Source: Streptococcus sanguinis (GTDB lineage: Bacteria; Bacillota; Bacilli; Lactobacillales; Streptococcaceae). Taken from it: a DNA stretch of 64,000 nucleotides. A program made the translations under genes and the position numbers. The notes beneath the pieces were generated by a model. It was not told the DNA's origin and did not search any database. It saw only the letters and a list, made by a program, of their open reading frames with translations. The DNA lies in NCBI RefSeq assembly GCF_013343115.1, contig NZ_CP054570.1, positions 62,001 through 126,000 of the forward strand, in the 5' to 3' direction. Below are positions 20,804 to 56,695 of the stretch, piece after piece. The number at the start of each line of letters is the position of its first letter. Within the stretch, counting starts at the first letter, position 1.

Positions 20804-23800
20804 ATGTCAAACAAGTTTGAAATTTTAATGCATCAGCTGGATATGCCCCTTGAAATGAGAAATTCAGAGGCCTTTTTGAATGCAGAAATTGAGGAAGTTC
20901 TGGTCCACAAGGTCAGTCGGGTCTGGGAGTTTCATTTTTCTTTTGCGAATATTCTGCCCATTGAGATTTTTCGGGAATTGCAGAAGCGCTTAGCTCAAGA
21001 GTTTTCTAAGACGGGCAATCAAGCTATTTTTGAAATTCACTGTCAGGCTCCCCAGGTGTCGGACGAGCTCTTGCAGGCTTATTACCAGCTAGCCTTTGAG
21101 GAAGGTCCTTGTGCCAGCCATGGTTTTAAGAGCCTGTATCAGGATTTGCGGGTCCATTTGGATGGGGACAAGCTGCTGATTGAGGGGGCTTCGACCATTG
21201 ATACGGAGCATTTTCGCAAGAATCACCTGCCCAATCTCAGTCGCCAGCTAGTCAAGTACGGCTTTCCTCAGTTGACCTGTCAGGTTCAGCACAGCGATGA
21301 GCTGACCCAGCAGCAAGCGGAGAATTTCCAGGCGGAGAATGACAAGATTGTCCAGGCAGCCAATGAAGAAGCGCTCAAAGCCATGGAATCCCTGCAGCAG
21401 ATGGCGCCACCGCCAGAGGAAAAGCCAGCCTATGACTTCCAAGCCCGCAAGGCTGCGGCTAAACCAAAGCTGGACAAGGCAGAGATTACCCCTATGATTG
21501 AAGTTCAGACTGAGGAGAATCGTCTGGTCTTCGAGGGAATGGTCTTTGATCTGGAGCAAAAGGTCACTCGGACCGGCCGGGTCTTGCTCAATTTCAAGAT
21601 GACAGACTATACTTCTAGCTTTTCCTTGCAGAAATGGATGAAAAACGAGGAAGAAGCCAAGAAGTTTGACATGATTAAGAAAGGCGCCTGGCTGCGCGTG
21701 CGCGGAAATGTGGAGATGAACAATTTCACCCGCGACCTGACCATGAATGTGCAGGATGTGCAGGCCGTTACCCACTATGAGCGCAAGGATTTGATGCCTG
21801 AGGGCCAGAAGCGGGTTGAGTTTCACGCCCATACCAATATGTCTACTATGGACGCCTTGCCTGAGGTGGAGGAAATCGTGGCAACGGCCGCCAAGTGGGG
21901 CCACAAAGCTGTCGCCATTACCGACCATGGCAATGTGCAGAGCTTTCCCCATGGCTACAAGGCAGCCAAGAAAGCTGGTATTCAGCTGATTTACGGTATG
22001 GAGGCCAATATAGTAGAGGACCGAGTGCCCATCGTCTACAATGAAGTGGACATGGAGCTGAGTGATGCGACCTATGTAGTCTTTGACGTGGAAACGACGG
22101 GGCTTTCAGCGGTCTACAATGACTTGATTCAGGTCGCTGCCAGCAAGATGCATAAGGGCAATATCATCGCTGAGTTTGATGAGTTTATCAATCCTGGGCA
22201 TCCTCTTTCGGCCTTTACGACGGATCTAACCGGGATTACAGATGAGCATGTTCGCAATGCCAAACCACTGGAGCAGGTGCTGAAAGAGTTTCAGGAATTT
22301 TGTCAGGACAGTGTCCTCGTTGCCCATAATGCCACCTTTGACGTGGGTTTTATGAATGTCAACTATGAGCGTCATGGCCTGCCGAAAATCACTCAGCCAG
22401 TCATTGACACGCTGGAATTTGCCCGCAATCTCTATCCAGAGTACAAGCGTCATGGTCTGGGGCCTTTGACCAAGCGTTTCCAGATTGCTTTGGAGCACCA
22501 CCACATGGCCAACTATGACGCGGAAGCGACAGGCCGCCTCCTCTTTATCTTTATCAAGGATGTAGCTGAAAAGCATGGTGTGACCAATCTCAAGGATTTG
22601 AATACGGATCTGGTCGATGAGAATTCTTACAAGAAGGCTCGGGTCAAGCATGCGACCATTTATGTGAAAAATCAGACGGGATTAAAAAATATTTTCAAGT
22701 TAGTCAGTCTGTCTAATACCAAGTATTTTGAAGGTGTCCCGCGGATTCCACGGACCGTGCTGGATGCCCATCGTGAAGGCTTGATTCTGGGTTCAGCATG
22801 TTCAGAAGGCGAAGTCTATGATGCTGTTGTCTCTCAGGGAGTGGATGCGGCTGTCGAAGTAGCCAAGTATTATGACTTTATTGAGGTCATGCCGCCGGCT
22901 ATCTATGAGCCACTGATTGCCAAGGAGCAAATCAAGGATCAGGAAGAACTGCAGACCATTATTCGTAATCTGATTGAGGTCGGAAATCGCTTGGGCAAGC
23001 CTGTCCTTGCGACGGGGAACGTCCACTATATCGAGCCGGAAGAAGAAATTTATCGTGAAATTATCGTCCGCAGTCTGGGTCAGGGAGCCATGATTAACCG
23101 GACCATCGGTCACGGTGAAAATGCCCAACCGGCTCCGCTTCCTAAGGCTCACTTCCGGACCACCAATGAGATGCTGGACGAATTTGCCTTTCTGGGCGAG
23201 GACTTGGCTAAGAAGCTGGTCATCACCAATCCGAATCAGCTGGCCGAGACCTTTGAGCCGGTTGAGGTAGTTAAGGGCGACCTCTATACGCCTTTCATTG
23301 AAAAGGCCGAGGAAACAGTTGCCGAGTTGACCTATCAAAAAGCCTTTGAGATTTATGGCAATCCGCTGCCAGATATCGTGGACTTACGGATTGAAAAAGA
23401 GCTGACCTCCATCTTGGGGAATGGTTTTGCCGTGATTTATCTGGCTTCGCAGATGCTGGTGCAGCGCTCCAATGAGCGGGGCTATCTGGTAGGTTCACGG
23501 GGGTCTGTCGGATCCAGTTTTGTCGCGACCATGATTGGGATTACCGAGGTTAATCCTCTGTCACCCCACTATGTCTGTGGCAAATGCCAATACAGCGAGT
23601 TCATCACGGATGGCTCCTATGGTTCAGGCTTTGATATGCCGGATAAGGACTGTCCAGAGTGCGGTCACAAGCTGAGCAAGAACGGTCAGGATATTCCTTT
23701 TGAGACCTTCCTTGGATTTGATGGGGACAAGGTACCCGATATTGACTTGAACTTCTCTGGAGAGGACCAGCCAAGCGCCCATTTGGACGTGCGGGATATT

Positions 23801-25192
23801 TTTGGTTCAGAATACGCCTTTCGGGCTGGGACCGTTGGTACCGTTGCGGCTAAGACCGCCTATGGATTTGTCAAAGGCTATGAGCGCGACTATGGGAAGT
23901 TCTATCGGGACGCCGAAGTTGAGCGTCTGGCGCAGGGAGCTGCCGGAGTCAAGCGGACAACTGGACAACACCCGGGCGGAATCGTTGTTATTCCTAACTA
24001 CATGGATGTTTATGACTTTACACCGGTCCAATATCCAGCTGACGATGTGACCGCCGAGTGGCAGACCACCCACTTCAACTTCCACGATATCGATGAAAAT
24101 GTCCTCAAGCTAGACGTTCTGGGACACGATGATCCGACCATGATTCGGAAGCTTCAGGACTTATCTGGCATTGATCCTAATGACATTCCTATGGATGATG
24201 CTGGCGTCATGGCCCTCTTTTCTGGAACAGACATTCTGGGTGTGACTCAGGAACAAATCGGCACGCCGACTGGTATGCTGGGAATTCCGGAGTTTGGGAC
24301 CAACTTTGTACGGGGCATGGTTGATGAGACCCATCCGACAACTTTTGCCGAGCTCTTACAGCTATCTGGTCTCTCTCATGGTACGGACGTTTGGCTGGGC
24401 AATGCTCAAGACTTGATCAAGCAAGGGATTGCTGACCTGTCCACCGTTATCGGCTGTCGGGATGATATCATGGTTTACCTCATGCACAAGGGCTTGGAGC
24501 CTAAGATGGCCTTTACGATTATGGAGCGCGTGCGGAAGGGCCTTTGGCTGAAAATTTCTGAAGAAGAGCGCAATGGCTATATCGCAGCCATGAAGGAAAA
24601 CAATGTGCCAGAGTGGTACATCGAGTCCTGTGGAAAGATCAAGTACATGTTCCCCAAGGCCCATGCGGCAGCCTACGTTATGATGGCCCTGCGGGTGGCC
24701 TATTTCAAGGTGCATCATCCGATTTATTACTACTGTGCTTATTTCTCCATCCGAGCCAAGGCCTTTGATATCAAGACCATGAGTGGTGGTCTTGATGCCG
24801 TCAAGCGCGGGATGAACGAAATCGCTGAGAAGCGTAAGAACAACGAAGCCTCCAATGTAGAAATTGACCTTTATACGACTCTAGAAATCGTCAATGAAAT
24901 GCTGGAGCGGGGCTTCAAATTCGGAAAGCTGGATCTCTACAAGAGCCATGCGACTGAGTTTCTCATCGAAGAGGATACCCTTATCCCACCATTCTCCGCT
25001 ATGGACGGTCTGGGTGACAACGTTGCCCGCCAAGTAGTCAGAGCGCGCGAAGAAGGCGAATTTCTCTCTAAGACAGAACTCCGCAAACGCGGCGGCCTCT
25101 CTAGCACCCTAGTCGAAAAAATGGACGACATGGGTATTCTAGGAAATATGCCCGAGGATAACCAGTTGAGTTTGTTTGATGAGTTTTTCTAA
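20804..25192 (+). CDS. polC: DNA polymerase III alpha subunit, Gram-positive type (PolC)
   Basis: 1462 residues, normal length. Order: N-terminal domains, OB fold (about 235-330), PHP domain ([20 protein letters not shown]) interrupted by a DEDD 3'-5' exonuclease ([32 protein letters not shown]), then the polymerase palm with [13 protein letters not shown] and [10 protein letters not shown], and a zinc-binding CGKCQ...CPECGHK segment. It is the main replicative polymerase of low-GC Gram-positives. TAAAAT at 20771-20776 is a plausible -10. Confidence 0.97.
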
Positions 25193-25210
25193 AATAATTC
25201 AACAAAGTTT

Positions 25211-25240
25211 AAAGATGGACGAATTTTGTCCATCTTTTTT
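25211..25240 (+). terminator. Terminator after polC
   Basis: Perfect stem AAAGATGGAC / GTCCATCTTT with loop GAATTTT, then a T-run. It marks the boundary between core sequence and the AT-rich cargo block. Confidence 0.85.
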
Positions 25241-25278
25241 GCTATATTTATTTTAGTAAATAGTAGATGGGGGAAGAA

Positions 25279-27159
25279 ATGTTTTTTTATCAAATAGAAT
25301 TTAGGAAAATGAATAAAAATATTAAAGAAGCAGATGAGGATTTTATCAAGGAGAATCAATGGTTTTATTATTTCAAAAACCAAACATGTCTTTACGTTGT
25401 TGGAGTAACAGAACATACCAAAGAGGATTTGTTTGATACGCTAAAAACTTTGGGGTTTAATGATGAAGAACGCACTGATTTTAAAGTTAAATCTATCAGT
25501 AAAAGTGAATATTTAAAGGAGGTGGGGAACAAGCATTCAGCTCAAATAGGTCAGCTTTTTCTTTATTCAGATGAAAGAGAGTTTTCAAATTCTGGTGGCT
25601 TTGCTATTACTGATTTAGAATGGGATGGCTTAAATATTATAGGTTTGAATGAATTTCAAGAGTATGTTTTAAAACTAAAAAAGTTTTTAAATAATCAAAA
25701 AGAAAAGGTGCTTGTTGAAAATCAGTTTTTAATTTTCAAAGGTTCTTTAGGAACTGGTAAAAAATTTGCTATAAAATATTTGATGAAATTGTTAAATGTC
25801 AAGTCTAAGACTATTTTGAAAGATGGATTTTCAACTAAATTTGATTCAGAACAGCGTTTAGTGATAATAAAGGACTATTCAACTATGCATCCTAGAAAAA
25901 AAGAGGAATTTAAAAATAATATTTTAGAAACAGGGGGAGGAAGAGTATATATTTTTTTGGCAGAGTCAGATAGTATAGCTTATGAAATATCTAGAGAATT
26001 TCTTCCACTATTTCATGTTGTTTATGAATTAAATTTTCCTCCCTACTCATATAACGAACTTGTTAATATTATAAAATTTCGCTTAGGGGATTATGGTTTT
26101 CATTTAGAAGAGGATCTAATAAAACTGCTTTCAAATCACAATTGTCTTACAAATAGTTACGATAGTTGTTATTTTGCTCAAAAGATTATTGAATATAATT
26201 TAATAGAAAGTAATTTGAGTAATGGAAAACAAACTGTTTCCTTGCCGTCGGAGCTGTTTTGTATGAAAGGTTGCAACAATCCATTAGGCACAAATTCTGA
26301 TACTTTGAAGGAGCTAGACCGTTTGGTTGGTTTATCTACTGTTAAAAGTCTGATTCATAGAATTCTAGATTACTTCTCTATATCGCAAAGAAGATTTGAA
26401 ATAAATTCTTCGCCCGTTCGGCCTTCTATGCACTTTATGTTTTCTGGAGCATCTGGTACTGGAAAAACAATTGTTGCTAGATTGTTGGCAAAAATTTTTT
26501 ATGAACATGGAATTATTAAATCAAACGTTTTGATTGAAGTAGGTCGCTCAGATTTAATTGGTGAATATGTTGGCCAAACAGCTCCAAAGGTTAAAAGATT
26601 ATTTGATAATGCCAAAGGCGGTATTTTATTTATTGATGAGGCCTATAGTCTAATTCCACAAGGAGAGCGTGATTTTGCTAATGAAGCTATTCCTACAATT
26701 ATTCAAGAAATGGAAAATAATAGAAATGATGTTATTGTGATTTTCGCTGGTTATACAGAAATGATGGAGGAGTTTTTAAACACCAATCCAGGTTTAGCTT
26801 CTAGAATTAGTAGAAACATTTATTTTAATAATTATAACAAGTATGAACTGTATGACATTCTGACTCTAATGGCTGATCAACAAGGTTATATAGTGGATAA
26901 GAAATGCAAAACTATCCTCCTGACTCATTTTGAAAAATGTCTTTGCTCAGAAAGTTTTGGTAATGCTCGTTATGTCAGAAAACTATTTGAGTTAGTTTTA
27001 TATATTCAGGCGGAGCGACTGATGAAAGAAGAGATAGTATCAGATCTAACTGATGCAGAGTTGAGCTATTTGTCTTACATAGATTTTGAAAAAGCAATAC
27101 ACGATTTAGAGAAAAAAGAAAATAACTCAAAAATAATAGGATTCAGGGCAGATATATAG
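25279..27159 (+). CDS. Tandem AAA+ ATPase (CbxX/CfqX/SpoVK-like C-terminal domain)
   Basis: 626 residues from ATG 25279, which has GGGGGAAG at the right distance; an in-frame ATG at 25267 overlaps that site. About 110 N-terminal residues have no known fold. A first AAA-like domain (about 140-330) is degenerate: Walker A is GSLGTGKK without the final Ser/Thr, and the Walker B-like strand LVIIKDYS lacks the catalytic glutamate. The second domain (about 350-600) is intact, with GASGTGKT, ILFIDEAYSL and sensor region VIVIFAGYTEMM, close to the CfqX/SpoVK clade. Base composition is much more AT-rich than polC. Its neighbours are a WYL regulator and DUF262 proteins, so a defence role is inferred. 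Confidence 0.8.
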   Translation: MFFYQIEFRKMNKNIKEADEDFIKENQWFYYFKNQTCLYVVGVTEHTKEDLFDTLKTLGFNDEERTDFKVKSISKSEYLKEVGNKHSAQIGQLFLYSDEREFSNSGGFAITDLEWDGLNIIGLNEFQEYVLKLKKFLNNQKEKVLVENQFLIFKGSLGTGKKFAIKYLMKLLNVKSKTILKDGFSTKFDSEQRLVIIKDYSTMHPRKKEEFKNNILETGGGRVYIFLAESDSIAYEISREFLPLFHVVYELNFPPYSYNELVNIIKFRLGDYGFHLEEDLIKLLSNHNCLTNSYDSCYFAQKIIEYNLIESNLSNGKQTVSLPSELFCMKGCNNPLGTNSDTLKELDRLVGLSTVKSLIHRILDYFSISQRRFEINSSPVRPSMHFMFSGASGTGKTIVARLLAKIFYEHGIIKSNVLIEVGRSDLIGEYVGQTAPKVKRLFDNAKGGILFIDEAYSLIPQGERDFANEAIPTIIQEMENNRNDVIVIFAGYTEMMEEFLNTNPGLASRISRNIYFNNYNKYELYDILTLMADQQGYIVDKKCKTILLTHFEKCLCSESFGNARYVRKLFELVLYIQAERLMKEEIVSDLTDAELSYLSYIDFEKAIHDLEKKENNSKIIGFRADI

Positions 27160-27170
27160 AATGTTCATGT

Positions 27171-27176
27171 TATAAT
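27171..27176 (+). promoter_or_regulatory. Extended -10 promoter of the WYL regulator
   Basis: TATAAT preceded by TG and one base (TGTTATAAT), 12 bases after the ATPase stop and about 20 before the regulator start. The regulator can therefore be transcribed on its own. Confidence 0.5.
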
Positions 27177-27196
27177 ATAGGGAAAGAGGAGGTTTT

Positions 27197-28144
27197 ATGA
27201 ACGATCAAGAACGTATTTTATCCATTTTGTTACGTTTGCAATCAGGAGCTCATCTATCAAAAAATCAATTAAGTGATGAGTTTGAGGTTAGTGCAAAAAC
27301 GATTCAGAGAGATTTTTCATTATTAGGTGATTTTTTAATGACTCAGCCCATGATAGCAGCAGAGTTGGCATACGATTCAAAATATCATACAAGATATTTA
27401 AAAGGAAAATTACTTTTTAATAAAAAAGATATTTTAATAATTTCTAAGATTTTATTAGAAAATAGAGCTTTAAATAAAGTAGAAAATGAGGATTTATTAA
27501 AAAGCTTGTTGGGGCTTGTTTCAAAAGAGGAACAAAAAGAAATAGAAATGATTATCAACAGCGAAAGACTGAACTATGCCCCAATTACAGACGAGCAAAA
27601 TCGTATTCAAAAGATTTGGGAATGGTCAGAGATGATTCGCAAGGAGAAGGTTCTAGAAATTGTCTACAAGAGTCCATATCAAGATAAAAAAGAACATTTA
27701 ATTTTTCCAGTTTCTCTGTACTATGATATTCATTATTTTTACATTGTAGCTTACAATATTAAGAATGAGCATTATATGACCTTGCGTTTGGACAGAATCC
27801 AGACTTGGAAGTCCACAAAGGAATCTAAACCCAACATCTCTTATGGCAGAAAATTCAGGGATGGAGATATTCGTAATCAGCGAGTAGACGCTTTTTTAGG
27901 AAGAAAGATCACAGTTGAATTGGAATTCTGTTATGATCCAACTATTGTTTTAGACCAATTTCCTAATGCACAGTGTTTATCTGCCGACGAAGGATGGACA
28001 CGGTTTAAATTTGAAAGTCAATATACACCTGGTCTTAAACGTTGGCTACTCAGTCAAGGAGAAGCAGTGAGAATTTTGTCGCCACAGTCTTTAGTTGATG
28101 ATATTCGGAAAACGATGAAAGAAATTTTAGGCTACTATCAATAA
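27197..28144 (+). CDS. HTH-WYL domain transcriptional regulator
   Basis: 315 residues behind AGAGGAGG. An N-terminal winged helix (ERILSILLRLQSGAHLSKNQ, then a recognition helix around VSAKTIQRDFSLL) is followed by a WYL domain (about 150-225: LEIVYKSPYQ, IFPVSLYYDIHYFYIVAYN, LRLDRI) and a WCX-type C-terminal part. WYL regulators such as BrxR and CapW repress anti-phage operons and sense nucleic acids or nucleotides. A near-perfect palindrome overlapping the promoter just downstream is the likely operator. Confidence 0.88.
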   Translation: MNDQERILSILLRLQSGAHLSKNQLSDEFEVSAKTIQRDFSLLGDFLMTQPMIAAELAYDSKYHTRYLKGKLLFNKKDILIISKILLENRALNKVENEDLLKSLLGLVSKEEQKEIEMIINSERLNYAPITDEQNRIQKIWEWSEMIRKEKVLEIVYKSPYQDKKEHLIFPVSLYYDIHYFYIVAYNIKNEHYMTLRLDRIQTWKSTKESKPNISYGRKFRDGDIRNQRVDAFLGRKITVELEFCYDPTIVLDQFPNAQCLSADEGWTRFKFESQYTPGLKRWLLSQGEAVRILSPQSLVDDIRKTMKEILGYYQ

Positions 28145-28150
28145 ATATTT

Positions 28151-28190
28151 TTGATATTTGAACTTAAGTGGACATAAAATGTCCACCTAA
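28151..28190 (+). promoter_or_regulatory. Promoter with overlapping palindromic operator of the DUF262 operon
   Basis: TTGATA (28151-28156), 18-base spacer, TAAAAT (28175-28180). A palindrome covers the -10: arms at 28164-28175 and 28179-28190 around AAA, core GTGGACAT/ATGTCCAC, with 11 of 12 positions complementary. This suits a dimeric regulator, most likely the adjacent WYL protein. Confidence 0.65.
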
Positions 28191-28230
28191 AGATGTAGAA
28201 TTTATCCATTAAGAAATAAAGGAGGCAAAA

Positions 28231-28353
28231 ATGATTGAATGGATTGTAGTTGATAGGTTTGGCAATCAAATCGCAGGACCATTTTTTGATAAAATAGCAG
28301 CAGAAAACGTTGCAAAAGCAATTCCTAATGCTACTATTATTCCAAAGCATTAA
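28231..28353 (+). CDS. 40-residue protein of the DUF262 operon
   Basis: ATG 28231 has a strong AAAGGAGG site 5 bases upstream, and the frame runs 40 codons to TAA. The product begins MIEWIVVDRFGNQ and includes a short amphipathic helix-like part (DKIAAENVAKAIP). No family is recognised. It sits alone between the operator and the DUF262 pair, where a small regulatory or antitoxin-like component would be expected. A missed tiny gene is more likely than chance given the ribosome site. Confidence 0.6.
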   Translation: MIEWIVVDRFGNQIAGPFFDKIAAENVAKAIPNATIIPKH

Positions 28354-28393
28354 TGGACCAAAGATTCTATGCTGATAAGATTTTTAGGAGATA

Positions 28394-29740
28394 ATGATGA
28401 ATGCCAATGAAAAAGAAATAGGGTTTGAAAGTAAAAAAGTATCAGAAATATTGAAATGGGATAGGCTAACAATACCAAGTTATCAAAGACCTTATAAATG
28501 GAACAGAAAGCATATCCGTAATCTTTTTTATGATTTACGAGATGCTATGGAGAAAAAGGAATATCAAGTTGGCTCTGTTATTTTGCATGAGAATGACGGA
28601 CACATAGATATTGACGGACACATAGATATTGTAGATGGCCAGCAACGATTGGTTTCCATTTCGTTATTTCTTTATGCTTTAAATAGATATGATGAATTTA
28701 AAGGAGCAAAAAACTTACTTGAAGCTGACTTTGGAGAACTATCTTGCTATAATGCTTACGAAAATTTTAATGAATGGAAGAATTTAATCCAACTTGTAGG
28801 CGAGAAAGAAGCTGAACAGGTGTGTAGTTTTCTACTTGAAAATTGTTCTGTCTCGGTGATTACTATGCCACAGGAACGATTATCAGAGGCTTTTCAATTG
28901 TTTGATTCACAAAATAATCGTGGAAAATCTCTAGAACCTCACGATTTACTCAAAGCTTATCATCTTCGTAAGCAAGATTCAGAAGATGAAAAGATTGTTG
29001 AAAAGTGGGAACAGTTTGTGGAAGACAAAGATTTAAGCCTCAAAGAGTTATTTGATAAACATCTTTTTCGTATGAGACGTTGGTCTCGGGGAGAGACAGG
29101 ACTAACAAATAAGCGTTATGGTTCTTATCTGCGTTTTACAGAGGATTTTATCGATGATTTTAAAGGCGTTGATTTAAATCAGAACTTTCCATACCTAGAA
29201 TTGTATCGTCATGTTGAAGAGTTCCCTATGTCAATTACCATGCCTATCATTGATGGAAGTGAATTTTTTAAGTATATTGAATCTGCTCATGAAACTATTA
29301 AAAATCATAAAGATTTTTTAAATGAACAGTTAGGAATTTCTAATGAGTCAGAGGAGGAAGAAAAAAATTTAACTTACCCAGAAGGTATGTTGAAAATTTA
29401 CAATAGCTCAAAGGGACGCTATCTCAAGTGCCAAAATATGTTCCTAAATATTTGTTCGCTTTTCGCAGAGAGATTTGGAAAAGAAGAGCTATCAAAGGAA
29501 ATAGTAGAGACCTTATTTATTTGGTCTTATTACCCCCGTGTGAAATCTCGAGCGATATATGATGCAACAGTTGGAAACTATGCTGCTGGTGGAAGATTCA
29601 GACAAAAAGATGTTCAAAAACTATTCCAACTTTTAGCCCATGCTGTAACTCCGAATGACTTCATGGTCAAGATAGATCGAGAATTATTTGAAAATTATAC
29701 AGTGGAGCAGATTATAGAGGAGGAAAAAGAGAAATGGTAG
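28394..29740 (+). CDS. DUF262 (ParB/Srx-fold) protein without DUF1524
   Basis: 448 residues. DUF262 motifs: IPSYQRPYKW near residue 30, VDGQQR near residue 83, and FDSQNNRGKSLEPHDLLKAY near residue 173. These belong to the GmrS/SspE-type NTPase fold used in type IV restriction and other phage defence. The C-terminal half is unrelated to the DUF1524 nuclease and has no known domain. A perfect 18-bp tandem duplication adds six residues (DGHIDI twice) just before DGQQR. The gene overlaps the next by 7 bases, so the two are translationally coupled. Confidence 0.88.
   Translation: MMNANEKEIGFESKKVSEILKWDRLTIPSYQRPYKWNRKHIRNLFYDLRDAMEKKEYQVGSVILHENDGHIDIDGHIDIVDGQQRLVSISLFLYALNRYDEFKGAKNLLEADFGELSCYNAYENFNEWKNLIQLVGEKEAEQVCSFLLENCSVSVITMPQERLSEAFQLFDSQNNRGKSLEPHDLLKAYHLRKQDSEDEKIVEKWEQFVEDKDLSLKELFDKHLFRMRRWSRGETGLTNKRYGSYLRFTEDFIDDFKGVDLNQNFPYLELYRHVEEFPMSITMPIIDGSEFFKYIESAHETIKNHKDFLNEQLGISNESEEEEKNLTYPEGMLKIYNSSKGRYLKCQNMFLNICSLFAERFGKEELSKEIVETLFIWSYYPRVKSRAIYDATVGNYAAGGRFRQKDVQKLFQLLAHAVTPNDFMVKIDRELFENYTVEQIIEEEKEKW
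28595..28630 (+). repeat. Perfect 18-bp tandem duplication inside the DUF262 gene
   Basis: GACGGACACATAGATATT occurs twice without a gap (28595-28612 and 28613-28630), in frame, giving DGHIDIDGHIDI directly before the VDGQQR motif. The partner protein lacks the extra six residues at the same place. It looks like recent strand slippage. Confidence 0.9.
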
Positions 29741-31596
29741 AAACACATATAAGCTTATCAGTTAATCGTTTGTTAAATGAAGATAGCTATGCTATTCCTC
29801 TTTACCAGAGAAATTTTGCCTGGACTTATGATGAAATAGAGCAATTATTGAACGATGTAGCAGATGCTTTTCAAGAACAAAGAGAAAATTACTATATTGG
29901 AACATTAGTCGTTAATGAAGAGAATGGTATTTTCAAAATCATAGATGGGCAGCAGCGGACAACAGCCCTTAATTTGATTGCCTTGGCTTTGAAACATGAG
30001 TTTGGTTTTGATAGATTGAAAGCTGTCAATCTTACTTTCCCAGCTAGGAAGAAGTCAAATGAGAACATTCAAAAGCTATTTACCAAGCAAAAAATCTCTG
30101 AGAATGATGAAAATGAACTAACTAGAGGTTACCGACATGCTCATGACGCACTGAAAAAAGTGCTAGAGGAGCGCCAATTTAAATCTCAATCGTTCTTTAA
30201 TTATCTTTTTGATAAAGTCATTATTTTTCGTAGTATTCTTCCTAATGATTTAGATTTAAATCTCTATTTCGAACGTTTCAACTCTCGAGGAGAACAACTA
30301 GAGGCACATGAAATTCTTAAAGCGCAAATGATGGCTAAGTTTGGTGAAGATCAAGAAATGGCGCAAAAATTTGCAAGAATTTGGGATGCCTGCGCAGAGT
30401 TTGATAAGCCGGTATTAAAAGCTTTTCAAATTCGAAGTAGACCAAATAATCCTGATGAAGAGGGGGAGAAAATTTTTGGGAGAGAATATGCTAATTTCAA
30501 ATTGCAAGAAGTATTTGATAAGATAGGAGTTGATAAGGTAGAGACAAAAAGTTTACTAGAGGCTATTTCTGAGGACAAATCTGAGAGGGGGAGAGCAGTA
30601 AGTAAAGAGTCAGATATTTCAAACTATACAACTGTAATTGATTTTCCAACGTTTTTGTTTCAAGTGTTTTTCATCATGGAAGGAAGTAATGAAACTACAT
30701 TTGATGATAAAAAATTATTGAAAATTTTTGAAATTGAACGACGAGATAGAGAATGGGTCCAACAATTTGGACAACTACTTCTGACTATGAAGCATATATT
30801 TGATACGCTTATCGTAAAAAATGCCCAATTAGAAAATGAAACCGAATGGCAAATCAAATGTGGTCAGTATGAGACATATCAACGAAATGAAAATGGTGGA
30901 TGGAAATATGTTCGAATTAATTTTCAAAAAAATACTTTTGACAATTTAAACAAAAACATTATCCTCCTCCAATCCATGTTTGCTGTCACCTTCACCGCTA
31001 ATCGTGATAGTCGTTGGTTATATGAGATTTTGCAATTCCTCTTTAACCATATTGAAGAGTTAAATGATCAAGAATTTGGTGCTCAGTTTAAAGATTTTCT
31101 TGAAAAAATGGCAGTGAGATATGCTGAAGAAAGATTGTTTACTGAGGATGGAAGTATAAAGAAATACGGGGATATTCCTGTTTATGCGTTTAACTTTGTG
31201 GATTATGTTTTATGGAAAAATCGTTCTGATTTAAAAGAAAAATATTCGAGTGTTGAATTTGAAGATTTCAAATTTACATATCGCCGTTCCATAGAGCATT
31301 GGTTCCCTCAGAATCCAAATGGACATGATGGAGAAAGCCAATTATCTGCTGAATTTTTGCATTCCTTTGGCAATCTTTGTATCATTACAGATAGTCAGAA
31401 TTCTAAGTTTGGTAATTCGTATCCAGAGTCTAAACTAACACAATGGAAGAGAGAAGATATCTTCAAGCGTCAGAGCTTAAAACTACAAATAATGGCTGCC
31501 CTAACGGAAAAGACTGAATGGGAATCAGATCAGGTTCTAGGGTTGGAAAACGAGATTTTACCTATGATCAACGAATTTATAGGAAGTAAAAAGTAA
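29734..31596 (+). CDS. DUF262-DUF1524 protein, predicted HNH-type nuclease
   Basis: 620 residues. The N-terminal DUF262 has IPLYQRNFAW, IIDGQQRTTALNL and ERFNSRGEQLEAHEILKA. The C-terminal DUF1524 part has the HNH-like core (SIEHWFPQNP about residue 525, then FGNLCIITDSQNSKFGN). Fused DUF262-DUF1524 proteins include GmrSD-type modification-dependent restriction enzymes and SspE. The first gene of the pair carries a second DUF262 domain, so the two probably form a hetero-complex. Codons are AT-rich like the rest of the block. Confidence 0.9.
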   Translation: MVETHISLSVNRLLNEDSYAIPLYQRNFAWTYDEIEQLLNDVADAFQEQRENYYIGTLVVNEENGIFKIIDGQQRTTALNLIALALKHEFGFDRLKAVNLTFPARKKSNENIQKLFTKQKISENDENELTRGYRHAHDALKKVLEERQFKSQSFFNYLFDKVIIFRSILPNDLDLNLYFERFNSRGEQLEAHEILKAQMMAKFGEDQEMAQKFARIWDACAEFDKPVLKAFQIRSRPNNPDEEGEKIFGREYANFKLQEVFDKIGVDKVETKSLLEAISEDKSERGRAVSKESDISNYTTVIDFPTFLFQVFFIMEGSNETTFDDKKLLKIFEIERRDREWVQQFGQLLLTMKHIFDTLIVKNAQLENETEWQIKCGQYETYQRNENGGWKYVRINFQKNTFDNLNKNIILLQSMFAVTFTANRDSRWLYEILQFLFNHIEELNDQEFGAQFKDFLEKMAVRYAEERLFTEDGSIKKYGDIPVYAFNFVDYVLWKNRSDLKEKYSSVEFEDFKFTYRRSIEHWFPQNPNGHDGESQLSAEFLHSFGNLCIITDSQNSKFGNSYPESKLTQWKREDIFKRQSLKLQIMAALTEKTEWESDQVLGLENEILPMINEFIGSKK

Positions 31597-31620
31597 GTTG
31601 TCAGATCTAGCATAATTTAA

Positions 31621-31666
31621 GAAGCCAATGTATAGCTGATAGATTTACATTAGCTTTCTTTTTTGT
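31621..31666 (+). terminator. Terminator of the DUF262 operon
   Basis: AAGCCAATGTA pairs imperfectly with TTACATTAGCTTTC, followed by T6. It also holds TTTACA (31644-31649), 17 bases before TAAAAT (31667-31672), a likely promoter for the toxin-antitoxin pair. Confidence 0.65.
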
Positions 31667-31696: not shown

Positions 31697-31960
31697 ATGT
31701 CAAAGACTAGTATGAGTATACGCTTGGACAGTGAGGTCAAGGAGCAGGCTCAACAGGTTTTCAACAGCTTGGGAATGGATATGACAACGGCTATCAATAT
31801 TTTTCTTCGTCAGGCTATTCAGTACCAAGGGCTGCCCTTTGATGTTAGACTGGATGAGAGTCGGAAGCTAGTGGAAGTATTGGCAGATTTAGATCAAAAT
31901 CGGAATATGAGTCAGTCTTTTGGGAGTGTCTCAGACTTGATGGAGGATTTGCGTGCTTAA
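31697..31960 (+). CDS. RelB/DinJ-family antitoxin
   Basis: 87 residues with an N-terminal ribbon-helix-helix (KTSMSIRLDSEVKEQAQQVF, then SLGMDMTTAINIFLRQAI), the hallmark of RelB/DinJ antitoxins. The C-terminal part should wrap the toxin. It overlaps the toxin gene by 8 bases. Such antitoxins usually autorepress their promoter. Confidence 0.9.
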   Translation: MSKTSMSIRLDSEVKEQAQQVFNSLGMDMTTAINIFLRQAIQYQGLPFDVRLDESRKLVEVLADLDQNRNMSQSFGSVSDLMEDLRA

Positions 31961-32231
31961 GATTCGTTATCATAAACAGTTTAAAAAAGATTTTAAGTTG
32001 GCTATGAAGCGTGGACTTAAGGCAGAATTGTTAGAAGAAGTCTTGGAGTTTTTGATTCAAGAAAAAGAACTTCCTGCTAAATATCGAGATCATCAACTGA
32101 CAGCATCCAAGCACTTTAAAGGAGTGCGTGAATGCCATATACAGCCAGATTGGATCCTGGTTTATAAAGTGGATAAGGAAGAATTGATTTTAAACTTACT
32201 TAGGACAGGCAGTCATAGTGATTTATTTTAA
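31953..32231 (+). CDS. YafQ-family mRNA interferase toxin
   Basis: 92 residues: KIRYHKQFKKDFKLAMKRG, an internal KYRDHQLTASKHFKGVRECH and PDWILVYKVDKEELILNLLR. This is the YafQ/RelE fold with the expected His, Asp and C-terminal aromatic/hydrophobic positions. It probably cuts mRNA on the ribosome when the antitoxin is lost. It lies directly beside the DUF262 cargo and may help keep it. Confidence 0.9.
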   Translation: MLKIRYHKQFKKDFKLAMKRGLKAELLEEVLEFLIQEKELPAKYRDHQLTASKHFKGVRECHIQPDWILVYKVDKEELILNLLRTGSHSDLF

Positions 32232-32492: not shown

Positions 32493-33734
32493 ATGGTTCT
32501 GCCAAATTTTAAAGAAAACTTAGAAAAATACGCTAAACTATTGGTTGCCAATGGTATTAATGTGCAGCCGGGTCACACGGTGGCGCTCAATATTGATGTG
32601 GAGCAGCGTGAGCTGGCTCACTTGATTGTCAAGGAGGCCTATGCTCTGGGTGCTCACGAGGTCATCGTCCAGTGGGCGGATGATTTGACTACGCGGGAGA
32701 AATTCCTCCATGCGCCGATGGAGCGCTTGGACAATGTTCCAGACTATAAGGTGGCTGAGATGAACTATCTCCTCGAAAAGAAAGCCAGCCGCTTGGGCGT
32801 TCGTTCATCTGATCCGGGGGCTTTGAATGGCGTGGATGCTGAGAAATTATCAGCTTCTGCTAAGGCTATGGGCATAGCCATGAAGCCGATGCGGATCGCA
32901 ACCCAATCCAATAAAGTCAGCTGGACAGTCGCTGCAGCAGCCGGTACAGAGTGGGCTAAGAAGGTCTTTCCAAACGCAGCCAGTGATGAGGAAGCGGTAG
33001 ACTTGCTTTGGGATCAGATTTTCAAAACCTGCCGTGTCTATGAGGATGATCCAGTAGCCGCTTGGAAGGCCCATGAAGAAAAACTCAGTTCAAAAGCTAA
33101 GGTTTTAAATGAGGAGCAATTCACTGCTCTGCACTATACAGCGCCGGGAACTGACTTGACATTGGGCTTACCCAAGAACCACCACTGGGAGTCAGCTGGT
33201 AGTCTAAATGCTCAGGGCGAGTATTTCATTGCCAACATGCCGACTGAGGAGGTCTTTACAGCACCGGACTTCCGACGGGCTGATGGCTATGTGACCAGCA
33301 CTAAGCCCCTCAGCTACAATGGCAACATCATTGAGGGCATCAAGGTGACCTTTAAGGATGGCCAGATTGTGGACATTACTGCTGAAAAGGGCGACCAGGT
33401 TATGAAGGATCTTGTCTTTGAAAATGCTGGTGCGCGTGCTTTAGGTGAATGTGCCTTGGTACCAGATCCAAGTCCGATTTCTCAGTCAGGTATCACCTTC
33501 TTCAATACACTTTTTGATGAAAATGCTTCTAATCACTTGGCTATCGGTGCAGCTTATGCGACCAGTGTAGTTGGCGGAGAGAATTTCTCTGAAAAAGAGC
33601 TAGAAGCAGCAGGCCTCAACCGCTCGGATGTCCATGTGGACTTTATGATTGGGTCTAACCAGATGAATGTCGATGGTATTCGTGAAGATGGTAGCCGAGT
33701 AGCCATCTTCCGCAATGGGGACTGGGCAATCTAA
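32493..33734 (+). CDS. pepS: Aminopeptidase PepS (peptidase family M29)
   Basis: 413 residues, full length for the M29 family. Typical segments: PNFKENLEKYAKLLVANGIN at the start, LGLPKNHHWESAGS, FIANMPTEEVFTAPDF with metal-binding glutamates, and DVHVDFMIGSNQMNVDGI at the end. It removes N-terminal residues from peptides in the cytoplasm using two metal ions. AAAGGAG precedes the start. Confidence 0.95.
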   Translation: MVLPNFKENLEKYAKLLVANGINVQPGHTVALNIDVEQRELAHLIVKEAYALGAHEVIVQWADDLTTREKFLHAPMERLDNVPDYKVAEMNYLLEKKASRLGVRSSDPGALNGVDAEKLSASAKAMGIAMKPMRIATQSNKVSWTVAAAAGTEWAKKVFPNAASDEEAVDLLWDQIFKTCRVYEDDPVAAWKAHEEKLSSKAKVLNEEQFTALHYTAPGTDLTLGLPKNHHWESAGSLNAQGEYFIANMPTEEVFTAPDFRRADGYVTSTKPLSYNGNIIEGIKVTFKDGQIVDITAEKGDQVMKDLVFENAGARALGECALVPDPSPISQSGITFFNTLFDENASNHLAIGAAYATSVVGGENFSEKELEAAGLNRSDVHVDFMIGSNQMNVDGIREDGSRVAIFRNGDWAI

Positions 33735-38940: not shown

Positions 38941-39061
38941 CTGTAGCTACTAAGATAAAAACACAGTTCTGGTTGGTAGTCCAGACGCAAAAAACCATTT
39001 TTTGTCAGTAACCTTCCTCCTTGGTTGTCCATTCTTAGGGATTTTTAAAGGAGGTGCTGTC
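38941..39061 (+). promoter_or_regulatory. Probable yjdF (azaaromatic-sensing) riboswitch
   Basis: A long leader directly before a yjdF-family gene, the normal location of the yjdF RNA motif. CCTCCTT (39016-39022) is complementary to the AAGGAGG ribosome site (39048-39054), which gives a direct way to hide the start. The full motif was not aligned. Confidence 0.6.
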
Positions 39062-56591: not shown

Positions 56592-56695
56592 AGGCGGTAT
56601 TGTTTACCCCATTTGTAAGGCCCCGGAACCTTTCAAATAACTCGCGGACCGGAACATCCGCCCTGTAAACAAAAACGATATTCATAGGAGAAATC
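56592..56695 (+). promoter_or_regulatory. L13 leader RNA of rplM
   Basis: A compact leader before rplM with an outer GTTTAC/GTAAAC stem and an inner GCGGA/TCCGC stem, as expected for the Firmicutes L13 leader by which L13 represses its own operon. Judged by eye. Confidence 0.6.

Follow-up and report, generated by a model that had tools for sequence, protein, structure and literature searches.

Do the AT-rich genes that lie between polC and pepS in Streptococcus sanguinis form a single system, and what holds them together? We studied this five-gene block in a 64,000-nucleotide (nt) stretch of S. sanguinis DNA (NZ_CP054570.1, 62,001 to 126,000; hereafter the window, in whose coordinates all positions are given). 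The block spans 25267–31596, with every open reading frame (ORF) called on the + strand, and codes for an AAA ATPase, a WYL-domain regulator, a small protein (ORF40), and two DUF262 proteins, here DUF262-a and DUF262-b. Pfam matches identify the flanking genes as polC (20804–25192) and pepS (32493–33734, peptidase M29). The G+C content is 0.30–0.36 in the block versus 0.45–0.52 over polC and 0.41–0.50 past 32 kb, and a further AT-rich dip (0.35–0.37) lies immediately 5′ of polC. ORF calls, Pfam matches, and G+C content agree with an earlier sequence-only reading, which had described four AT-rich genes and a tiny ORF on one strand between the two flanking genes and suggested a role in phage defense. 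That reading was silent on operators, and it is a pair of palindromic boxes that ties the gene set together. Judged by these boxes and their counterparts at related loci, the five genes very probably belong to a single regulon under WYL control, and we consider it likely that the block forms a single inducible cassette against phages, controlled by the WYL protein, with a TgvAB-like nuclease and the AAA protein as an accessory.

Palindromic Boxes in the Window and at Related Loci

The palindrome TGGACA-N5-TGTCCA occurs twice in the window, 5′ of the AAA gene and 3′ of the WYL gene (boxes 1 and 2; Table 1). No other site in the 2.36-Mb genome matches TGGACRN5YGTCCA perfectly, and 16 more sites match it with one mismatch; the reversed control gives 11 sites in all. 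Box 2 sits inside a 19-bp perfect palindrome and overlies the promoter-like match with the highest score. That match to the consensus is weak, and such matches in the stretch barely exceed those in shuffled sequences (37 versus 29.4).

The WYL gene (E 1e-50 or better) was found at 65 loci, spread over 62 of the 284 Streptococcus genomes searched. The census of these loci used ORF similarity and covered both strands of each stretch, and "near WYL" means within the stretch; the WYL ORF is intact in 60 loci, and the set includes the 5 loci without an intact one. The motif was defined on 44 loci. Allowing up to two mismatches, a box lies within 150 bp past the WYL stop in 23 of these 44 loci; in the 150 bp upstream of WYL, 1 of the 44 has one, and shuffling each downstream flank once left none of the 44 with a box. 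Across the 65 loci (1.125 Mb) we counted 78 sites with at most one mismatch, and 72 of them, in 58 loci, are at module positions, defined as at most 150 nt before a module gene or at most 60 nt after WYL. The module genes preceded by boxes are those for AAA, for ORF40, for truncated copies of the replication proteins DnaA, DnaB, and the PolC exonuclease (DnaA-like, DnaB-like, and EXO-like; see below), and for a few others, the distances being 34–78 nt before the gene start or 1–25 nt after WYL. With some sites counted under two labels, 27 placements are after WYL, 22 before AAA, 24 before DnaA-like, 13 before ORF40, 3 before DnaB-like, and 1 before EXO-like genes, plus a few before others.

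At the same loci, the reversed box gave 11 sites, none of them at a module position, and 20 permuted palindromes (19 distinct) likewise gave none at these positions. Eighteen loci obtained later, many of them close kin of the earlier ones, served as an independent check, and 17 carry the box with at most one mismatch. No box was found in the 19 readable polC–pepS gaps that lack the block, among 30 pepS loci. The box sequence and its 5-nt spacer are kept where the regulators are 43–100% identical to that of the window, with the exception of a 6-nt spacer in L177; in L176 and L177, both arms show paired changes (TAGACA..TGTCTA). It is because of this placement and conservation that we regard the five genes as very probably one regulon. 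An extended −10 element following every box was ruled out as a common feature, as it was seen in 17 of 139 strand readings.

Table 1. Positions of the genes, boxes, and predicted promoter of the block in the window
Feature	Position	Strand	Remark
WYL box 1, TGGACGAATTTTGTCCA	25216..25232	.	Starts 24 nt past the polC stop, 34 nt 5′ of the AAA start
AAA ATPase, 630 aa	25267..27159	+	C-terminal AAA CbbX/SpoVK-like, N-terminal AAA degenerate
HTH-WYL-WCX transcription regulator, 315 aa	27197..28144	+	Pfam WYL and WCX
Predicted sigma-70-type promoter, TTGATA-18-TAAAAT	28151..28180	+	Consensus match only; −10 within box 2
WYL box 2, TGGACATAAAATGTCCA	28169..28185	.	Starts 25 nt past the WYL stop, 5′ of ORF40/DUF262-a/DUF262-b
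ORF40, 40 aa, small conserved protein	28231..28353	+	Homologues at other loci
DUF262-a, 448 aa	28394..29740	+	GmrSD_N and DUF7834; TgvA-like layout
DUF262-b, 620 aa	29734..31596	+	GmrSD_N and GmrSD_C (DUF1524, His-Me nuclease); TgvB-like layout

The Regulator and ORF40

The window regulator exceeds the Pfam cut-offs for WYL and WCX, and its helix-turn-helix (HTH) match, HTH_11, is 1.9 bits under the cut-off (E 6.7e-05). It thus has the HTH, WYL, and WCX-like C-terminal layout of BrxR-type repressors; no sequence of a solved structure (PDB) was matched at E 0.01. Another WYL protein, CapW, is reportedly also a repressor of defense loci. BrxR, which represses a defense island, binds inverted repeats of 10–11 bp with a 5-bp spacer according to the available part of PMC9122601. 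The window resembles BrxR and CapW in the layout of the regulator and in the inverted repeat with a 5-bp spacer near a predicted promoter, and differs from them in that related boxes also precede exchangeable accessory genes and in the lack of a sequence match to the solved proteins. By analogy, the boxes closely parallel the BrxR operator in form; membership of the regulator in BrxR is not supported by sequence.

ORF40 homologues, 41–62% identical, adjoin the same genes at other loci, a relative is present in 30 of the 65 WYL loci, and an S. suis phage record annotates a relative of 39 residues as a coding sequence (CDS); for these reasons, we do not consider ORF40 a chance ORF.

The company of the WYL gene varies. 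In L175, L176, and L177 it adjoins a ClpB-like double AAA protein (882–958 aa, or two pieces), and these loci also code for a protein of 176–179 aa without a Pfam match, to which L176 and L177 add a KAP-type NTPase. Further cargo of WYL loci includes the modification-associated proteins Nmad2 and Nmad3 besides the ClpB-like AAA protein and the KAP NTPase.

The DUF262 Pair Has a Known Layout

The sequence-only reading had considered two DUF262 subunits, one of them nuclease-less, plus an ATPase an unusual part list. The composition was confirmed: the genes overlap by 7 nt, Pfam places the DUF1524 nuclease domain (GmrSD_C) in DUF262-b only, and a Pfam search of DUF262-a showed no nuclease domain. 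The layout itself is that of a published system and hence not unusual. TgvAB/GrwAB of Vibrio cholerae, as described in the available parts of PMC11411939 and PMC12409362, consists of two DUF262 genes, one with a C-terminal DUF1524 His-Me nuclease. The available text of PMC11411939 further lists QR, DGQQR, FxxxN, and H..N..N as the TgvAB motifs, states that restriction needs both proteins, and describes HEC-06, SspE, and BrxU (GmrSD-like) as working as single proteins. Compared by eye with that motif list, DUF262-a and DUF262-b both keep QR, DGQQR, and FxxxN, and DUF262-b keeps the nuclease residues H..N..N. The window thus shares with TgvAB/GrwAB the adjacent DUF262 genes, one with DUF1524, and the motifs, a likeness of layout and motifs alone, and its predicted effector has the layout of a known kind, two-protein GmrSD type IV restriction. 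Unlike TgvAB/GrwAB, which lie inside a type I restriction-modification system, the window pair stands beside a WYL regulator, an AAA protein, and ORF40, and its non-nuclease partner carries DUF7834. HEC-06, SspE, and BrxU have the DUF262 core in common with the pair, and there are partial PADLOC matches to HEC-06 and SspE, but the matches to those models cover parts only. In PADLOC-DB 2.0.0, we found no full-length match of the gene set, only partial ones (HEC-06, Orf5, SspE, IetA, WYL, and a few others), in line with the earlier statement that no named system is known to have this exact set. Of the phage-defense reading, the defense-type parts, the WYL regulator, and the type IV logic therefore stand, and the unusual DUF262 pair does not.

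Against this known effector, the new part is the control half, the WYL regulon with its candidate operator. A Gram-positive WYL regulator of defense gains a short, testable candidate operator, and the question of what WYL senses is therefore open to a simple reporter.

What we observed are the gene content, the motifs, and the boxes with their placement and conservation, and from these we infer WYL binding, repression and ligand, cleavage, and the roles of AAA and ORF40. The WYL protein would bind the boxes 5′ of AAA and 5′ of ORF40–DUF262-a–DUF262-b and would most likely repress both units. Upon infection, a ligand at the WYL domain would free the repressor, single-stranded DNA having the best precedent. 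DUF262-a and DUF262-b would then assemble a TgvAB-like restriction enzyme dependent on nucleoside triphosphates, the DUF262 domains recognizing modified invading DNA and the His-Me domain of DUF262-b cutting it. The tandem AAA protein would be an accessory remodeler of the same regulon and a nonconstant part of it.

Two details of the DUF262-a gene were also noted. In the window, an 18-nt unit, gacggacacatagatatt, is tandemly doubled at 28595–28630, just 5′ of the DGQQR codons, and in L132–L134 the gene codes for 442 aa versus 448 in the window.

The AAA Protein

The ATPase had been read as a tandem AAA protein, and the two halves fared differently. Pfam AAA and AAA_lid_6 match only the C-terminal half; the first AAA is a degenerate-looking P-loop ATPase (GSLGTGKKF) recognized by eye, and the structure model of the protein is of low confidence (mean predicted local distance difference test, pLDDT, 60.6). 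In structural comparison of that model, CbbX is the best match and tandem p97/Cdc48-type proteins align over a longer stretch; the model being too weak, we dropped the structure as a clue to function. The C-terminal AAA is 34–39% identical to CbbX chains in structural alignment, and the best NCBIfam matches of the protein are spore_V_K, cbbX, and EccA. With 257.6 of 422.95 and 228.6 of 459.25 bits, it stays below the curated NCBIfam cut-offs for the CbbX/SpoVK equivalogs, and unlike CbbX, SpoVK, and EccA, it has two AAA modules in tandem, the first of them degenerate, and an additional stretch at the N terminus.

Among 197 Streptococcus genomes, 21 near-full-length AAA matches were found, 20 of them no farther than about 1 kb from a WYL gene. 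For the 21st (G014), one piece adjoins WYL and a gene of the family c17 (see below), and the rest is about 27 kb away; an insertion of about that size appears to have split the AAA gene there (L129, L130). Conversely, AAA is intact in 28 of the 65 WYL loci and fragmentary in 3, and hence it is not a constant part of the regulon. In L139 and L140, where the DUF262 pair occupies the polC slot without WYL, a SpoVK-like AAA protein of 935–962 aa is coded a few genes downstream.

Truncated Copies of Replication Proteins

The window holds no DnaA-, DnaB-, or EXO-like copy. At least one strict copy is present in 28 of the 65 loci, 39 if c17 is counted, leaving 37 without a strict one. DnaA-like copies (130 aa or more) occur in 26 loci, DnaB-like copies in 4, and EXO-like copies in 5, polC itself being excluded from the last count by length. 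In Pfam, the DnaA-like copies match only the ATPase domain of DnaA (four tested; Bac_DnaA, E 2e-18 to 2e-46), the DnaB-like copies the DnaB_C motor (two tested), and the EXO-like copies the RNase_T exonuclease (one tested, plus its S. suis twin).

The DnaA-like copies all stop at about the same point, just past what we take to be domain IIIa. Walker A, checked in all, is kept in 17 of 26 and lost in 9, and it is also lost in L098, outside the census; the Walker-less and Walker A types are related (hhalign 97%, E 1e-11; 6 versus 8 sequences). A search of the 197 genomes with one DnaA-like query returned at least three short second copies, the three listed all being at WYL loci, and missed some known copies. 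Members of c17, about 176 aa long, lie between AAA and WYL in 12 loci, none with Walker A; we rejected c17 as a certain relative of DnaA, the relationship being only probable (hhalign 70%, E 4e-5, no significant Pfam match). All four DnaB-like copies lack the N-domain, and that of L117 is 54% identical to DnaB of the window genome. In three of them, Gln replaces the Arg that we take to be the Arg finger of DnaB, within the C-terminal KNRSG stretch; the fourth lacks that stretch. All five EXO-like copies lack at least one of the residues that we assign to the DEDDh set of the PolC exonuclease, in four patterns: E to A, D to E, and H and the last D gone in the near-identical L117 and L254; D to T, D to V, and more in L208; D to E, and H and the last D gone in L209; and His alone gone in L142. 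L142 and L209 retain the PolC stretch directly before the first motif. As judged from the residues, this varied and repeated loss of catalysis favors a binding role, without choosing between bait and brake.

Decoy logic is known from plant immunity, and the replication copies resemble such decoys. In a guard cassette, the copies, and perhaps the window AAA protein, would act as bait for phage proteins that bring host replication to a halt, and capture of the bait would be signaled to WYL and the effectors released; if baits, the copies would reveal host proteins attacked by phages. Excised copies of three distinct core replication proteins repeatedly turn up in the neighborhood of this one regulator, and with the fold kept and catalysis lost in the EXO-like and DnaB-like copies and in part of the DnaA-like ones, this suits such a role. 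We nevertheless rate it as rather unlikely: the copies carry boxes and hence are regulated, which is unnecessary for a sentinel, most of the DnaA-like copies retain the ATP site, the window and the majority of loci do without a strict copy, and both the physical link from copy to WYL and the phage inhibitor are suppositions.

The copies could also be brakes, WYL-controlled dominant-negative inhibitors that, once derepressed, stall host replication and the replication that phages borrow, as an abortive arm beside the nuclease arm. Like effectors, they sit downstream of boxes, and the native assembly would presumably be poisoned by a DnaA without lid and DNA-binding parts or by a DnaB motor that lacks the Arg finger. 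However, the window AAA is not a replication protein, and c17, if derived from DnaA, now resembles it little, so that this role, too, appears doubtful to us.

We tentatively propose, as a possibility well short of probable, that the regulon maintains DnaA IIIa, the DnaB motor, and the PolC exonuclease as excised copies, disabled in part or entirely, that act as baits or brakes; WYL would sense seizure of the replisome and, via the box, switch on interchangeable DNA-cutting or DNA-modifying effectors, and the window would be a variant with a CbbX-like remodeler in the sensor slot. In a limited literature search, we found neither a regulon with such a candidate operator, exchangeable effectors, and replication copies nor an account of truncated DnaA, DnaB, or PolC copies with WYL.

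Distribution, Mobility, and the Case for One Cassette

Among the 197 Streptococcus genomes, 48 have relatives of AAA, counting partial ones, 36 have relatives of DUF262-a, and 40 have relatives of DUF262-b. DUF262-a is intact in 39 and DUF262-b in 43 of the 65 WYL loci, and both are near WYL in 39. An intact set of AAA, WYL, and both DUF262 genes is present in 15 loci, the window included, 4 in the polC–pepS slot and 11 elsewhere. The set thus recurs at unrelated loci, as the sequence-only reading had asked; because these 15 loci exist, it is neither the case that the genes never co-occur elsewhere nor that the ATPase is always found without the DUF262 genes. The five-gene order in the slot is seen in the window genome (G000), G145, G046, and G182. 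The slot of G035 holds an AAA remnant plus a transposase (by sight); in L134, AAA is present merely as a remnant, and the transposase there is presumably IS200-like. Among the 18 later loci, 16 have the DUF262 pair, L254 has only a DUF262-b-like gene, and L260 has neither; in L258 and L259, the DUF262-a gene is in pieces.

Outside Streptococcus, relatives of the WYL protein reach at most 33% identity (395 genomes of the order). We rejected distant WYL genes of other Lactobacillales genera as family members, the nine loci read containing no replication copies. A partial WYL copy (67%) is found on one Lactococcus plasmid, and a search of genome contigs with a single protein, rather than an alignment, as the query gave 5 close loci. 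A tblastn search located the WYL gene, at 67%, in a pair of S. suis phage records that are nearly identical. In one of them, the gene order is DnaB-like, WYL, DnaA-like, the ORF40-like CDS, EXO-like, and a DUF262-b relative, with two boxes of one mismatch each. The DnaB-like gene is annotated as "replicative DNA helicase" and the EXO-like gene as "polC-type DNA polymerase III"; in MN270266.1 (L304 7095–7916, 9655–10179), these two labels sit on truncated, probably inactive copies. The comparison thus reveals truncated replication-protein copies labeled as helicase or polymerase in the public record. An IMG/VR contig has AAA, WYL, DnaA-like, ORF40, Nmad2, and Nmad3 genes and in these is equal to S. 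entericus L252.

Several findings count against a single WYL-controlled cassette. The loci are kin and their counts are not independent events, and 7 of the 65 have no box at a module position. A perfect box occurs somewhere in 126 of the 197 genomes, which rules it out as a genome-wide signature; many of the perfect matches listed are the G+C-centered TGGACGACCTGTGTCCA or a near variant, and the window genome has 1 perfect match to the reversed control versus 2 to the box. Since the mere presence of a box is nonspecific, the signal lies in its placement. The effector is not constant either: 11 of the 65 loci hold a gene of the family c18 without an intact DUF262-a, 8 of them also one of c22, and the DUF262 pair occurs without WYL in four polC-slot loci (L097, L139–L141). 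By analogy, the box could also serve an activator rather than a repressor; DriD, a WYL protein, activates, according to the available part of its description.

With c18 in place of an intact DUF262-a at 11 loci, the effector appears exchangeable. The c18 proteins are about 300 aa long, have no significant Pfam match, and in all 11 copies lie beside AAA and WYL; c22 is also found in G236. The look-alike TGGACGACCTGTGTCCA recurs across species (e.g., G001:C1:1695584), perhaps within a conserved gene.

Could the block be a loose assembly at a defense hotspot, in which a TgvAB-like pair of the usual kind merely neighbors an unrelated WYL gene and ATPase and the parts share no control? The polC–pepS slot does take other cargo (a RelB/YafQ-type pair in L291 and, by sight, a methyltransferase-like gene in L275 and L278), AAA and the copies are present at some loci and absent from others, and the DUF262 pair can stand without WYL. 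The placement of the boxes, the 15 loci with the intact set, and the proximity of nearly all near-full-length AAA genes to WYL argue otherwise and make such an assembly very unlikely.

Possible Terminators and Neighboring Features

It is highly unlikely that the palindromes are transcription terminators and not operators: box 1 does make up the stem of a hairpin after polC (25211–25237) that has a T-run and looks like a terminator, and the palindrome of L175 is also followed by T's, but box 2 has no T-run, the boxes keep their sequence and, L177 aside, their spacer across diverged regulators, they lie 34–78 nt before gene starts, and terminator-like matches in the stretch are no more numerous than in shuffles (3 versus 3.3). 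Box 1 may be operator and terminator both.

Immediately 3′ of the block, a toxin–antitoxin pair of the RelB/DinJ-YafQ type lies at 31697–32231. As a RelB/YafQ-type pair occupies the polC–pepS slot both with and without the DUF262 block, we treated it as separate cargo of the slot. Elsewhere in the window, an azaaromatic (yjdF) riboswitch (38945–39048) and an L13 leader (56596–56675) reach the Rfam gathering scores.

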